Positions 11,690 through 22,428 of a stretch of 27,339 nucleotides of DNA are shown one piece after another; the stretch's first letter is position 1, and each line of letters starts with the position of its first letter. The notes below the pieces were generated by a model. That model worked only from the letters and a program-made list of their open reading frames with translations, was not told where the DNA came from and searched no databases. The stretch comes from a virus. The DNA is taken from positions 1 through 27,339 of IMG/VR virus record IMGVR_UViG_3300008516_000110; one strand, 5' to 3'. The position numbers were made by a program, and so were the translations under genes.

Positions 11690-11728
11690 CAAGCATGACA
11701 TTATAGCTATAAGAAGGGGGTGATCAGA

Positions 11729-12775
11729 ATGGCAGTAATTGTTGGAGAACAGGCAGGGGCATTGGGTGTATCCCAAAAGGTGCATACACAGAAAAGCACC
11801 GGCAAGGCAGTGACGGGCAGCATGGACGCCCAGGTAAAGCTACAAGACGCCCAGGAAGAAGCCAGGGAAGCCAAGGAACAAACCGAAGAAGTCAAGGAAG
11901 AAGCCCAGGAACTGAAGGGGATACTAGGTACATTAAGCCACGAAGATGCTGCTGAACTGTTAGCAGGGCTTGGTCTGCGAACTGATAAGCTAGAAGAACG
12001 TGTAGACGAAGGCCAGGCAACCCTTGAGACTATGAAGGAAAGCCTGAATCCTGCCATTGCCAAGTTAACGGCACTGATCCCAACAACGAAGGAAGGTCGT
12101 AGCGAAATTACCCACATCACCAAAGGCCAATACAGAAAAGTTTGGGGCAGAGATCCGCGACAGGAAATATTGACCAAAGATGGCAAAAGCGTCAGATGGG
12201 AATATGCCCTAGATGAAGTTGCCCAAGAACTCCACCTAGAAGACAAGGCCAGGACCGAAGGAAAGAACCCTGACGAATACCTGAAGAACCTGATTGAAGA
12301 AGCCAGGGACATGAAGGCGTTGGTCAAGGCGACCGAAGCTGAATTAGAATCGGATGAACAAACGCTTAAAGCACTTGAACGACTAAAAGGGGCTATCAAG
12401 GCTAGGTCTACAAAGCAAACTACCGGTCCCTTGCTACGCAAGATAGCACAACCCAAGATCAAACCGTCCGTTAAGCCTAGGCCTACTACCCAGGCAAAGA
12501 AGATTCTAGCCAGTGTCGCACAGGAATTGATACAGAGAACCCAGGCTAAAAGAAGCCCTAGGGCTATTGCCATGGACAACCTTCTACTTGCCAAGAAGAT
12601 ACACCCCCTAGTGAATGCAGAAGCCTGGGCCAAAAGTCCGAACCGAACCGATATACGTGGTGTTGACACCCCCGGCAGGGGCAAGATAGTTTCCGGCGTG
12701 GCCTATGCCGACAAGGGCAAGAAAAGATTATCTCGAAAACGTCACCGGGGGTTCAAAAAAATCCGATATACATAA
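11729..12775 (+). CDS. Basic coiled-coil protein, possible virion/DNA-binding protein
   Basis: The ATG at 11729 sits 6 nt after AAGGGGGTGATC, almost a full complement of a 16S 3' end; the GTG at 11720 within that site is rejected. The product has 348 residues. About 30-70 and 80-105 are heptad-like coiled coil (LQDAQEEAREAKEQTEEVKE). About 130-200 is a mixed domain (HITKGQYRKVWGRDPRQEIL, then VRWEYALDEVAQEL). About 205-240 is a second coiled coil. From 240 onward it is Lys/Arg-rich, ending KKRLSRKRHRGFKKIRY. The tail could bind nucleic acid, as a nucleocapsid-like or scaffold protein. It closes the structural half of the plus arm. The family is not recognised. Confidence 0.82.
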   Translation: MAVIVGEQAGALGVSQKVHTQKSTGKAVTGSMDAQVKLQDAQEEAREAKEQTEEVKEEAQELKGILGTLSHEDAAELLAGLGLRTDKLEERVDEGQATLETMKESLNPAIAKLTALIPTTKEGRSEITHITKGQYRKVWGRDPRQEILTKDGKSVRWEYALDEVAQELHLEDKARTEGKNPDEYLKNLIEEARDMKALVKATEAELESDEQTLKALERLKGAIKARSTKQTTGPLLRKIAQPKIKPSVKPRPTTQAKKILASVAQELIQRTQAKRSPRAIAMDNLLLAKKIHPLVNAEAWAKSPNRTDIRGVDTPGRGKIVSGVAYADKGKKRLSRKRHRGFKKIRYT

Positions 12776-16922: not shown

Positions 16923-17864
16923 ATGGGCAGAACTAACATAGAATGGGTAAAGAACCCTGACGGTAGCCAGGGCTATACTTGGAATCCTATCACTGGCTGT
17001 CTTAACCACGACAACGGACTATGCAAAGGCGGTAACTTCCCCTGCTATGCCTACAAGCTAGCGAATGGGAGATTGAAGCCTTTGTATTTGGCGAATGATA
17101 AAGTAATACTCCCAATATCAGGAGTTGATTTTAATGAGTTGGCCGTCTGTCTTAAAGACCCCTTCTATCCCCGCTATTGGCAAGAGAGGGTTAGAGAAGA
17201 ATTTGGGGCATGGACAGCAGGGGCTATCCCCAAAGGTATATTCGTCTGTGATATGGGCGACTTATTCGGTATCGGTGTGCCTGAACAATGGACACGAAGG
17301 GTATTAAGCCATATTGGTATGTCGTGGTATAGCGAACACCGCTTCTATATCCTGACGAAGCAAGCCCAACGACTCCCCGAGTTTAGCCCCTTCCCTGATA
17401 ACGCATGGATAGGGATTACTGTCACGAATCAGCAAATGATGGCAGATGCTTTATTCGCACTACATAAAATTGAAGCTCGCGTTAAATATGTTTCCTTTGA
17501 ACCTTTATTAGGCAGGATAGCTTTCGATATGCATAAGAACGCACCTGTTTGGTTCAGAGAACTTGATTGGATAATCATCGGGGCTTGCACAGGCACTTTG
17601 CCCGACATGGCATTGCTAGCCGAGAAGTATCCTGATTTATGGCTGGCTGGACATGATAACAAGATAACAGCACAGCCTAAGATCGAGTGGGTGCGAGAGA
17701 TAGTCAAAGCTGCTGACAAGGCGGGAGTAAAGATTTTTCTGAAGGATAATCTGATGCCCTTATTCAAAAGGGGTGATATATGGGCAATTCCCGAATGGGC
17801 TAGCTTCAATGATTGGACAAGACAAGATATTGGCACAACTTTAAGACAGGAGTTTCCCAGGTGA
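16923..17864 (+). CDS. Phage Gp37/Gp68 (DUF5131) family protein
   Basis: The 313-residue protein starts at an ATG after AAAGGGGGTACTAGAC. It begins TNIEWV and has WNPITGC (20-26), then Cys34 and PCYAYKLANG (40-49), the N-terminal Cys cluster of the Gp37/Gp68 family. Later strands match it too: KGIFVCDMGDLFG, FYILTKQAQRL, WIGITVTNQ, VKYVSFEPLLG, WIIIGACTG and a C-terminal VKIFLKDNL. The family has been suggested to be radical-SAM-related because of the Cys cluster and barrel-like strand order; the reaction is not known. It is full length. It sits in one operon with the recombinase and a clear radical SAM gene. Confidence 0.87.
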   Translation: MGRTNIEWVKNPDGSQGYTWNPITGCLNHDNGLCKGGNFPCYAYKLANGRLKPLYLANDKVILPISGVDFNELAVCLKDPFYPRYWQERVREEFGAWTAGAIPKGIFVCDMGDLFGIGVPEQWTRRVLSHIGMSWYSEHRFYILTKQAQRLPEFSPFPDNAWIGITVTNQQMMADALFALHKIEARVKYVSFEPLLGRIAFDMHKNAPVWFRELDWIIIGACTGTLPDMALLAEKYPDLWLAGHDNKITAQPKIEWVREIVKAADKAGVKIFLKDNLMPLFKRGDIWAIPEWASFNDWTRQDIGTTLRQEFPR

Positions 17865-18154: not shown

Positions 18155-18306
18155 AGATAAAGGACCTCACATTAAGCCAGTGGTTTGTAATCGTGTTCGT
18201 GTTAGTTCCCCTGGCAATAATACTAGGGCTAAAAGACACATTCGCCCCTAAATTCATAAACCTACTGGATAAGATAGAAGACAAGGCATTATCAAAGATT
18301 AAATGA
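18151..18306 (+). CDS. 51-residue single-TM protein
   Basis: The ATG at 18151 overlaps the previous TGA (ATGA) after AGGAAAAGAAGC. One TM helix (about 10-29, WFVIVFVLVPLAIILGL) is followed by an amphipathic Lys/Asp tail (LLDKIEDKALSKIK). It is coupled to the recombinase downstream by another ATGA. Function unknown. Confidence 0.7.
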   Translation: MKIKDLTLSQWFVIVFVLVPLAIILGLKDTFAPKFINLLDKIEDKALSKIK

Positions 18307-18878
18307 AAACAAAGATCAGAACCATAAAATACTTATCCCAGGACGAACTTAAACGATTGTTCAAGGCTATCGACAAGAAGCGTGACCGTGCAATATTCCT
18401 GATTGCCTATCGCCACGGGCTTCGGGCATCCGAAGTCGGGATGATTCGCATGGAAGATGTAGACCTGTCCCAGGGAAGGATCAGAATCGAACGGTTGAAG
18501 AATTCCCTGGGCGGCGAACACCCGCTACAACCGGATGAAATGCGAATACTGAAAGCCTGGATGAAGAAACGCCAGGATACCATGCCCTGCCTATTCCCCG
18601 GGGCCCGGGGGCTTCCGATCCACAGGCAAACCCTGAACTGGCTTATGAAACGCTACGGAAAGAAGGCGAATATTCCGGCAGATAAACGCCACTTCCACGT
18701 ATTAAAGCACAGTATAGCCACTCACTTGCTAGATGCGGGGGCAGATATAAGGTTCGTCCAGTATTGGATCGGGCATAAAAACATTATGAACACCGTGATC
18801 TACGCCCAGTTAAGCCATCCTACCCGGGACACCATGGCCAGGCGATTGTTTGCAAGCACTGACATTGTGGGGATGTAA
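18303..18878 (+). CDS. Minimal tyrosine recombinase (catalytic domain only)
   Basis: The 191-residue product holds the full catalytic set of a tyrosine recombinase: R41 (HGLRASE), K66 (ERLKNS), H132-x-x-K135 (HVLKHS, with Lys replacing the usual Arg), H158 (IGHKN) and the nucleophile Y167 (VIYAQL). It lacks the N-terminal SAM-like core-binding domain; typical phage integrases are 300 or more residues. The ATG overlaps the previous stop (ATGA), so the short form looks genuine. It may integrate the element, resolve dimers or invert a segment. No attachment site, tRNA fragment or inverted-repeat pair was seen nearby. R-to-K in the HxxR box occurs in some family members, so activity is plausible. 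Confidence 0.88.
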   Translation: MKTKIRTIKYLSQDELKRLFKAIDKKRDRAIFLIAYRHGLRASEVGMIRMEDVDLSQGRIRIERLKNSLGGEHPLQPDEMRILKAWMKKRQDTMPCLFPGARGLPIHRQTLNWLMKRYGKKANIPADKRHFHVLKHSIATHLLDAGADIRFVQYWIGHKNIMNTVIYAQLSHPTRDTMARRLFASTDIVGM

Positions 18879-18880
18879 TT

Positions 18881-19726
18881 ATGAGTTGGGCAAAGTCAAT
18901 AGTCCACTGGCAGGATAGCGGACGGGTTTTCATTTCAGTGCCATTTACATGGTATTTGCCCAAGGCCAAAACGCTATGCACCTGGTACAAAGATGCGGGT
19001 TACTACGTATACGCCGGGGGGCCGGCAGTTGACCTAATGCCCGAATATATCCGTGGGGTAGCCGACCAGGTTGGTGGTGAATTCCACCCGTCGCCGCTGA
19101 AGCGACACAACCCCCACGCCACGTTCACTAGCCGCGGTTGCATTCATAACTGCGGATTCTGTGCCGTGCCGAAGATTGAAGGCGAACTCCGAGAACTACC
19201 CCCTGATAAATGGATCCCCGCCCCTATCGTTTGCGACAACAACCTATTGGCCACTAGCCAACGCCACTTCGATCTTGTCATTGATAGATTGAAGGGGCTA
19301 AAAGCCGTCGATTTCAACCAGGGGCTAGATGTTCGGTCACTTAATGAACACCACATTGAACGATTGCAGGAATTATGGTTGCCCCAGTTAAGATTTGCGT
19401 TCGACCATACCAACATGGAAGCCAGGATTGTGGACGTTTTTAGAATGGTTCTGAACGCCGGATTCGCGAAACGCCGATTAAACTGCTATATAATGTACGG
19501 CTACCACGATTCCCCAACCGATGCTTTGCACCGTGCTAACGTAATTAAAAGCCTGGGGATTAAATCATTCGTGCAAAGATTCCAACCGATCGAAGGCGAA
19601 CACGCCCTGGTAAAGGATTCCTGGGTTGGACCCGAGTGGACCGACCAAGAAATGCACCGGTTCCAACGATACTGGTGTCGGCAAGCCTGGTTGAGCAAGA
19701 TTCCGTACGCCGAATTCACGGGCTAA
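18881..19726 (+). CDS. Radical SAM protein
   Basis: The 281-residue protein has the canonical radical SAM cluster C87-x3-C91-x2-C94 (TSRGCIHNCGFCAVP) that binds a [4Fe-4S] centre. The first 75 residues (with YYVYAGGPAVDLMPEY) resemble a shortened B12-binding-like Rossmann region seen in MiaB/B12-type radical SAM enzymes, but the cobalamin-binding motif is not evident. Downstream strands (VDFNQGLDVRSL, QLRFAFDHTN, LNCYIMYGYHDSPTDALHRA) fit the SAM barrel. It starts 2 nt after the recombinase stop, preceded by GTGGGGATG. The substrate is unknown; nucleic acid or a virion protein are options. It is uncommon for a small element. Confidence 0.88.
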   Translation: MSWAKSIVHWQDSGRVFISVPFTWYLPKAKTLCTWYKDAGYYVYAGGPAVDLMPEYIRGVADQVGGEFHPSPLKRHNPHATFTSRGCIHNCGFCAVPKIEGELRELPPDKWIPAPIVCDNNLLATSQRHFDLVIDRLKGLKAVDFNQGLDVRSLNEHHIERLQELWLPQLRFAFDHTNMEARIVDVFRMVLNAGFAKRRLNCYIMYGYHDSPTDALHRANVIKSLGIKSFVQRFQPIEGEHALVKDSWVGPEWTDQEMHRFQRYWCRQAWLSKIPYAEFTG

Positions 19727-21339: not shown

Positions 21340-22428
21340 ATGCTATCACACCTAGACTTATTTTCCGGTATTGGCGGTTTTGCCCTAGCAGCGAACTGGG
21401 CAGGGTTCACGACCGTGGGGTTCGTGGAAATAGACAAATACTGCCAACGGGTGTTAGCGAAGCACTGGCCAGGCGTTCCGATAGTGGGGGATATTAGAAA
21501 TGTCGAGAATATCAGGGAAATTGTTGCCAACGCCACAAGAGGACGATTCGAGCAATGTGAAATGTGGGGAAAAACGCCGAATGACACTGGCGAAGTGGAT
21601 AAAAACACCCGAAGAAGAACAGGTAACCCAATCCAACCAGTTACCCTTATTACAGGGGGATTCCCTTGCCAACCTTTCAGTCTTGCCGGGAAGCGACAAG
21701 GCACGGCAGATAACCGCTACCTCTGGAATGAAATGCTTACCGTTATCGACGCCATCAAGCCCACTTGGGTACTTGCTGAAAACGTTGGTGGAATCGCAGG
21801 AATGGAATTCACAGATAGTGCTTCTGACCTGGAAGGTAAATCCATTGAAGAAGTGGAAATTGAGTTATCATCAGTCCTTGACCGAGTGTGTTCCGACCTT
21901 GAAAAAATCGGTTACGCAGTCCAACCGATTATTATACCGGCTTGTGGCGTCAATGCCCCACACAGACGCGACCGAGTATTCATTATGGCATACGCCCCGA
22001 GCAACGGAAACACTGGAAGATCCAAAGAAGTTCGTGGATCGGAATGCCGATCGGGGTTACCATTGCACTCCGAACCTGACAACCCAGGTCATGTGGCGAA
22101 CGCCACACGGGGAAGAAAAGAACCCTGGCCCGAAGGGTGGGCATCTGACAAGCCAGGTGAAACAACTACTACCAACACCCAAAGAACGGGATTGGAAGGG
22201 GCAGACACAGAGGGGGACCGACCAAACTACACACGGAGGGTTGCCAAATCTGGACAAAGGGGATGGCAAGCCGATTGGTGGGCAGTTGAACCCGAACTGG
22301 GTAGAATGGCTAATGGGATTCCCAATAGGGTGGACCGACTTAAATGTTTAGTCAACGCAATCGTGCCGACCGTGGCCTATCAGATATTGAATATCATAGC
22401 GAAAATAGAATCAAATAAGGGGGTATAA
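21340..22428 (+). CDS. dcm-like: DNA cytosine-C5 methyltransferase (Dcm-like)
   Basis: The 362-residue enzyme methylates C5 of cytosine in DNA. Motif I is LDLFSGIGGFALA (5-17, SAM binding), motif IV is GGFPCQPFS with nucleophile C110, motif VI is ENV (147-149), motif VIII is HRRDRVF (208-214), and motif X includes NAIVP (339-343). A target-recognition-like region (about 220-310) lies between VIII and X. The segment 62-105 between motif I and IV is longer than usual and low in conserved character. VANATRGR occurs twice (62-69 and 252-259). The ATG at 21340 lacks a clear ribosome binding site. Nearly 80 percent of the gene also encodes a second protein in the +1 frame. No cognate restriction endonuclease is adjacent, so it probably protects or marks the element's DNA. 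Confidence 0.92.
   Translation: MLSHLDLFSGIGGFALAANWAGFTTVGFVEIDKYCQRVLAKHWPGVPIVGDIRNVENIREIVANATRGRFEQCEMWGKTPNDTGEVDKNTRRRTGNPIQPVTLITGGFPCQPFSLAGKRQGTADNRYLWNEMLTVIDAIKPTWVLAENVGGIAGMEFTDSASDLEGKSIEEVEIELSSVLDRVCSDLEKIGYAVQPIIIPACGVNAPHRRDRVFIMAYAPSNGNTGRSKEVRGSECRSGLPLHSEPDNPGHVANATRGRKEPWPEGWASDKPGETTTTNTQRTGLEGADTEGDRPNYTRRVAKSGQRGWQADWWAVEPELGRMANGIPNRVDRLKCLVNAIVPTVAYQILNIIAKIESNKGV
21500..22351 (+). CDS. Second protein encoded inside the methyltransferase gene (+1 frame)
   Basis: A 283-residue frame lies wholly within the dcm-like gene, shifted by +1. ATG 21500 has GGGGG (21486-21490) 9 nt upstream, a better ribosome binding site than the outer gene's. The protein is not random: GKLLPTPQEDD near the start, LLTWKVNPLKKW near the middle, then LWHTPRATE, MWRTPHGEE and LLPTPKERDWKG, a GGLPNL motif, and LNPNWVEWLMGFPIGWTDL at the end. 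I recall this set (LPTPTxxDxKG, LTWK, LNPxWVEWLMGFPxGWTDL) as a recurring phage protein of unknown function, found with cytosine methyltransferases. The same DNA encodes motif X of the methyltransferase in the other frame. Two conserved readings of one stretch indicate genuine overprinting. A role linked to the methyltransferase is inferred. Confidence 0.72.
   Translation: MSRISGKLLPTPQEDDSSNVKCGEKRRMTLAKWIKTPEEEQVTQSNQLPLLQGDSLANLSVLPGSDKARQITATSGMKCLPLSTPSSPLGYLLKTLVESQEWNSQIVLLTWKVNPLKKWKLSYHQSLTECVPTLKKSVTQSNRLLYRLVASMPHTDATEYSLWHTPRATETLEDPKKFVDRNADRGYHCTPNLTTQVMWRTPHGEEKNPGPKGGHLTSQVKQLLPTPKERDWKGQTQRGTDQTTHGGLPNLDKGDGKPIGGQLNPNWVEWLMGFPIGWTDLNV

Follow-up and report, generated by a model that had tools for sequence, protein, structure and literature searches.

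In C5-cytosine DNA methyltransferases, motif IX normally anchors the recognition domain to the catalytic domain. The recognition units of the multispecific Bacillus phage enzymes are ~40 residues long, and the small subunit of M.EcoHK31I is read from an alternative frame inside the large-subunit gene. M.EcoHK31I carries motifs I-VIII and X in its larger subunit and motif IX in the smaller polypeptide, and its predicted recognition domain was placed in the larger subunit (PMC3404938). In M.AquI, a C5 enzyme that occurs naturally as two subunits, the small subunit holds motif IX and a portion of the recognition region (PMC3404938). The multispecific C5 methyltransferases of Bacillus phages SPR, phi3T and SPbeta have a series of small recognition units lying side by side between motifs VIII and IX (work cited in PMC12707154 and PMC4081073).

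We analyzed a virus record of 27,339 bases (the window), in which an outer ORF for a methyltransferase wholly contains an inner ORF (ORF listing). By its described layout M.EcoHK31I is similar, because the window also has motifs I-VIII and X in the large chain and motif IX in the small one; unlike in that enzyme (PMC3404938), the recognition cassettes and the constraint lie in the overlapped small subunit. A partition similar to that of M.AquI was found in the related loci L204 (Brevibacillus borstelensis) and L066 and in actinophage gene pairs. M.AquI has motif X in the small subunit as well, whereas the window has it in the large chain and its genes are nested; motifs IX and X were both in the small subunit in L204 and L066 and not in the window. 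The cassette array between motifs VIII and IX resembles that of the Bacillus phage multispecific enzymes, but these are single chains in one frame, the WPTP cassettes are a different sequence type, and the multispecificity of the window is putative. The actinophage "DNA methylase" has a C-terminal half or a second gene homologous to the inner protein (phrog_1008), whereas its parts, motif X included, lie in one frame or in adjacent non-nested genes. Redbud g51, from a Paenibacillus larvae phage, shows the same nesting as the window, and its record gives no function or mechanism. Literature searches on methyltransferase overlap found no paper describing or explaining the nesting.

Catalytic and putative recognition parts in two frames

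A preliminary description of this DNA had placed the outer ORF at 21340-22428 and the inner ORF at 21500-22351, both on the + strand, and these positions were exact. The features of the locus are as follows.

21340-22428, + strand: outer gene (alpha), putative C5-cytosine methyltransferase catalytic subunit, 362 aa (PF00145, phrog_363, AF2 model)
21340-21999, + strand: outer catalytic domain, motifs I-VIII, residues 1-220 (AF2, invariant residues)
21486-21491, + strand: probable ribosome-binding site of the inner gene, GGGGGA, 8-9 nt 5' of the ATG
21500-22351, + strand: inner gene (beta), recognition cassettes and motif IX, +1 frame, 283 aa (phrog_1008)
21521-21604, + strand: extra N-terminal cassette-like unit of the inner protein (LLPTPQEDD...), approximate boundaries (alignment)
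21617-21982, + strand: conserved N-terminal inner part (TATSGMKC...LLTWK...RLLYRL), overlapping outer motifs IV-VIII (alignments)
21664-21672, + strand: catalytic PCQ, outer frame
21983-22090, + strand: recognition cassette 1 (LWHTPRATETLEDPKK...LTTQV; module split)
22009-22293, + strand: outer frame across the recognition region, residues 224-318, predicted disordered filler (AF2), kept open
22091-22165, + strand: recognition cassette 2 (MWRTPHGEEKNPGPKGGHLTSQVKQ; module split)
22166-22285, + strand: recognition cassette 3 (LLPTPKERDWKGQTQRG...DKGDGKPIGGQ; module split)
22286-22342, + strand: motif IX, inner frame (LNPNWVEWLMGFPIGWTDL; alignment to Dcm and actinophage methylases)
22327-22374, + strand: outer motif X region (RVDRLKCLVNAIVPTV; oX profile, 85 bits)

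The outer protein matched PF00145 (E = 2.2e-37) and phrog_363 (E = 3.6e-73). The inner protein matched the profile of phrog_1008, annotated as DNA methyltransferase, over residues 123-282 (E = 1.1e-25), and had no match of weight in Pfam and NCBIfam. The inner gene had been said to have its own strong ribosome-binding site, and this was borne out: the anti-SD duplex was −8.4 kcal/mol at the GGGGGA of the inner ATG (21500) and +0.4 kcal/mol at the outer ATG.

We consider it very likely that the gene encodes a two-subunit C5-cytosine DNA methyltransferase, with alpha and beta subunits read from its two frames. Alpha would fold the AdoMet-binding and catalytic domain (motifs I-VIII) and be closed by motif X, with disordered filler between. 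Beta would be initiated independently at the internal ribosome-binding site and provide the parts that alpha lacks, namely the target-recognition region (an array of ~40-residue WPTP cassettes) and motif IX. We infer that the two chains would assemble as one active enzyme methylating phage DNA, probably at several sequences with one target per cassette, and that this methylation would protect the phage DNA from host restriction.

The AF2 model of alpha had pLDDT mostly >90 in residues 1-220, outside inserts near 70-100 and 155-180, and its best Foldseek match was M.HhaI (E = 3e-13), with M.HaeIII and DNMT1 also matched. Residues P109, C110, E147, N148, R210 and R212 were invariant in all 88 aligned sequences. 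Alpha carries the C5 methyltransferase motifs I-VIII, including PCQ and ENV, and a confidently modeled motif X helix (GN...P) with Val in place of Gly338. This residue (22351-22353) was Gly in 87 of the 88 aligned homologs; the Val may mean that the alpha of the window itself is weakened or impaired, or it may be a sequencing difference. At residues 224-318 pLDDT was <50, so alpha is predicted to be disordered where the recognition domain should sit. Disorder-type residues made up 74% of the outer recognition stretch across loci, and phmmer alignments against the PDB were limited to the catalytic part.

The outer chain lacks a folded recognition domain and motif IX. The statement that the outer frame keeps all core motifs therefore held for motifs I-VIII and X, and motif IX was found in the inner frame instead. 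Dual coding of motif X at the 3' end, which had also been claimed, applied to the RVDRLK lead-in. The inner frame terminates (stop codon 22349-22351) just as the outer motif X core begins (VNAIVP from 22351), so this core is encoded by the outer frame only.

Inner motifs that had been listed, LPTPxxxD, LTWK and LNPNWVEWLMGFPIGWTDL, were all present. E. coli Dcm has LTPRECARLMGF as its motif IX, and the inner C-terminus, LNPNWVEWLMGF, aligned with it, as it did with the in-frame motif IX of actinophage methylases. phrog_1008 matched Bora gp5, a separate C-terminal subunit, at E = 4e-41 and, in the single-ORF Fancypants gp73, the C-terminal half at E = 1e-48. Because this profile is common to nested inner proteins, Bora gp5 and the gp73 half, beta is homologous to the recognition-plus-motif-IX half of a methyltransferase. 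Motifs IX-X in split C-terminal subunits were assigned by PHROG profiles and direct Dcm alignment; Pfam did not recognize them in these subunits, except weakly in L066. An AlphaFold model of the inner chain alone (109-sequence alignment) had pLDDT 58 and no Foldseek match, and such a poor model was set aside as evidence for or against any fold.

The inner product had been suggested to be an inhibitor, a specificity partner or a protein of unrelated function. The evidence points to the specificity partner, since beta has cassettes and motif IX that are absent from alpha. If beta were instead a separate regulator or inhibitor that arose from a recognition domain and was not required as a subunit, it would also be co-encoded with the methyltransferase and share a region with it. 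We regard this as very improbable, because alpha is without motif IX and a folded recognition region while beta has both, and because split relatives are partitioned identically.

Two further observations concern the rest of the window. Antisense ORFs of 325 and 351 aa at 11707-12684 (−) and 11720-12775 (+) overlap almost completely, and no convincing family match was found for either. Located 5' of the methyltransferase are a DUF5131 protein (16923-17864), an integrase-like C-terminal fragment (18303-18878) and a radical-SAM-like gene (18881-19726).

Selection on both frames

To measure constraint on the inner frame, we shuffled outer synonymous codons while keeping the outer protein and codon usage. 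The inner frame of the window acquired a mean of 9.3 stops and was open in 0 of 400 shuffles. Across 185 non-redundant loci (<70% identical), the inner frame was stop-free in all 185, compared to a mean of 6.2 stops and 1.9 open loci expected from shuffles; these loci were picked as nested, and the outer-selected set described below is the cleaner sample. A held-out inner profile scored a mean of 189 bits on 144 real loci compared to 59 bits on shuffled ones. The real score was above all 50 shuffles in 141 of the 144, and the remaining 3 had no profile score, real or shuffled. In the converse test, inner synonymous codons were shuffled within the recognition region. The outer frame was open there in 185 of 185 loci compared to 16.3 expected, and is thus also kept open.

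We then compared substitution rates at outer codon positions 1/2/3 in 54 disjoint pairs. Upstream of the inner gene the rates were 0.125/0.059/0.368, and downstream of it 0.135/0.095/0.370 (position 3/position 1 = 2.95 and 2.75), the pattern expected of one outer gene alone. Over catalytic motifs IV-VIII they were 0.130/0.067/0.210 (ratio 1.61), and in the recognition region 0.294/0.145/0.120 (ratio 0.41). Substitutions in the recognition region therefore favor outer position 1, which is inner position 3, and the inner frame is constrained there. These rates support constraint that is shared over motifs IV-VIII and falls mainly on the inner frame in the recognition region, where the outer frame is kept open as predicted filler.

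An internal start with an SD site (duplex −5 kcal/mol or better) before the inner homology was present in 84% of loci compared to 37% of shuffles. This enrichment favors independent initiation over programmed ribosomal frameshifting, by which the recognition region and the catalytic domain would be joined in one chain encoded partly by each frame. Single-ORF actinophage methylases do carry these parts in one frame, and the two frames overlap in the order that the domains need. However, a chain shifted into the inner frame would stop short of motif X, and a second shift would be required to include it; we consider frameshifting very unlikely.

The proposal of overlapping genes under dual constraint is well supported by inner-frame conservation, the openness of both frames, internal starts and codon-position substitutions. 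The suggested check on synonymous codons gave the same answer, with the inner frame open in 185 of 185 loci (~2 expected) and rates inverted in the recognition region. Outer-protein-preserving shuffles still reach 59 bits on the inner profile, as they might if the inner frame were open only as a side effect of outer-protein conservation and codon usage and yielded no product. The stops, profile scores, start sites, codon-position pattern and loci L204 and L066 contradict this explanation, which was rejected by synonymous shuffling and has almost no probability in our assessment.

Homologs and other layouts of the same parts

Searches with the inner protein returned 77 phage records and 205 viral-contig stretches, and the inner alignment found 281 genome stretches from many phyla. 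In every inner-selected case (the best 80 viral loci and six phage regions), the inner homolog was read in the +1 frame with respect to the methyltransferase. We used the outer protein and the outer alignment as queries to obtain a sample without selection on the inner protein, which comprised 86 viral loci and shares a few with the inner-selected set. In 84 of these 86 an intact outer ORF contained the inner homolog in its +1 frame, although 2 of the 84 outer ORFs end before motif X at a contig end. The exceptions were L130, which is nested but whose outer frame is broken and whose motif X is read in the inner frame, and L163, where the inner match belongs to a second, downstream gene. Genome loci were nested in 76 of 80 (the best 80 of 281); with the best 80 loci taken per search, these prevalence figures apply to relatives of the enzyme rather than to all phage methylases.

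The preliminary description had proposed searching the inner protein against phage proteins, and homologs do overlap methyltransferase genes (84 of 86 outer-selected). The opposing case that it named, a broken inner frame with an intact methyltransferase, was not seen in those 84 of 86. No inner homolog without a nearby methyltransferase was found among the best 80 genome or viral loci; relatives of the inner protein were nested in, split from but adjacent to, or fused to a methyltransferase. Both frames are often annotated in Paenibacillus larvae phages (Redbud g51 is a CDS labeled "g50 internal gene"), and many other phage records annotate one of the two products. The nested arrangement is present, mostly unannotated, in hundreds of phages and prophages.

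Other arrangements of these parts were also found. In Fancypants gp73 and Graduation gp47, one ORF holds motifs I-VIII, IX and X in a single frame. Adjacent pairs split between motifs VIII and IX were observed in Bora (gp6/gp5), PeaceMeal1 (gp76/gp75) and Gmala1 (gp28/gp29). In L204 and L066 the inner frame continues through motif X, and the outer frame is full of stops in the recognition region, where the inner frame is open; the outer frame is no longer needed past motif VIII. This layout is what the split-enzyme model would predict. L066 has a stop in its PCQ motif, which makes L204 the cleaner case.

Several individual loci showed further variation. L254 (1-1692; Streptomyces phage Darolandstone gp38) is a methylase in one ORF that keeps motifs IX and X in frame. 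Across the recognition region, however, its +1 frame is free of stops and codes for about six LPTP cassettes, a putative third arrangement with the cassettes alone in the other frame. An in-frame stop at the outer PCQ was found in four distant homologs (L018:4048, L199:3021, L235:3027 and L066:4042). Three of the four have a 6-nt insertion at the site (TAGCTG, TGACTG, TGATCG), and an HNH-endonuclease-like segment lies just 5' of the stop in L018 and L235; this looks like a homing-endonuclease or excision history at the catalytic site. In L163 (133-1952) a complete methylase ORF (133-987) is followed by an inner-type gene (912-1952) whose catalytic frame is apparently broken, possibly a tandem duplication with one copy decaying. 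L250 (2682-3730), with one motif IX read in the outer frame and its motif X in the third, looks like a recombined or decaying copy. The Roseovarius sp. chromosome OX638333.1 carries five nested loci with identical match scores (L227-L231), including two adjacent pairs ~46-47 kb apart, which suggests repeated or tandem prophages, or an assembly effect.

Putative recognition cassettes

In the inner recognition region, units beginning with [LM]WPTP follow one another in a row. We counted 612 such units with a median of 40 residues, mostly 2-4 per locus and up to 7. The window has three cassettes before motif IX, giving several recognition units between motifs VIII and IX, and one extra unit at the N-terminus, which has a similar extension in L035 and L007. 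Its last unit, cassette 3, is resembled by units in L088 and L016. Each cassette is predicted to recognize DNA.

Six related viral loci with 83-99.8% identical catalytic DNA differ in cassette order: A-B-C-D (two loci), B-E-C-F-D, B-E-G-C-H, B-E-C-I-H and A-B-J-C-K-H. The same cassette in these six loci often had an identical inner sequence and a different outer reading. In addition, 255 cassette pairs that are at least 70% identical sit in enzymes with catalytic domains <65% identical, down to 35%. Exchange of cassettes has occurred among near-identical enzymes, and distant ones (catalytic domains 35-65% identical) have cassettes in common. Because the cassette gene is nested in the catalytic gene, swapping would have to keep both frames open.

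On balance, we think it likely that this widespread phage enzyme family uses nested second-frame cassettes of ~40 residues as a reusable alphabet of cytosine-methylation specificities across distant enzymes. The locus offers an unusually clear natural example of dual coding, with the constraint passing from one frame to the other along the gene. It belongs to a large two-product gene family for which many records annotate one product, and the missing half would set the methylated sequence. If the cassettes are independent recognition units, matching them to methylomes would yield a modular code of cytosine-methylation specificity and account for how phages could rapidly change their methylation pattern and escape restriction.
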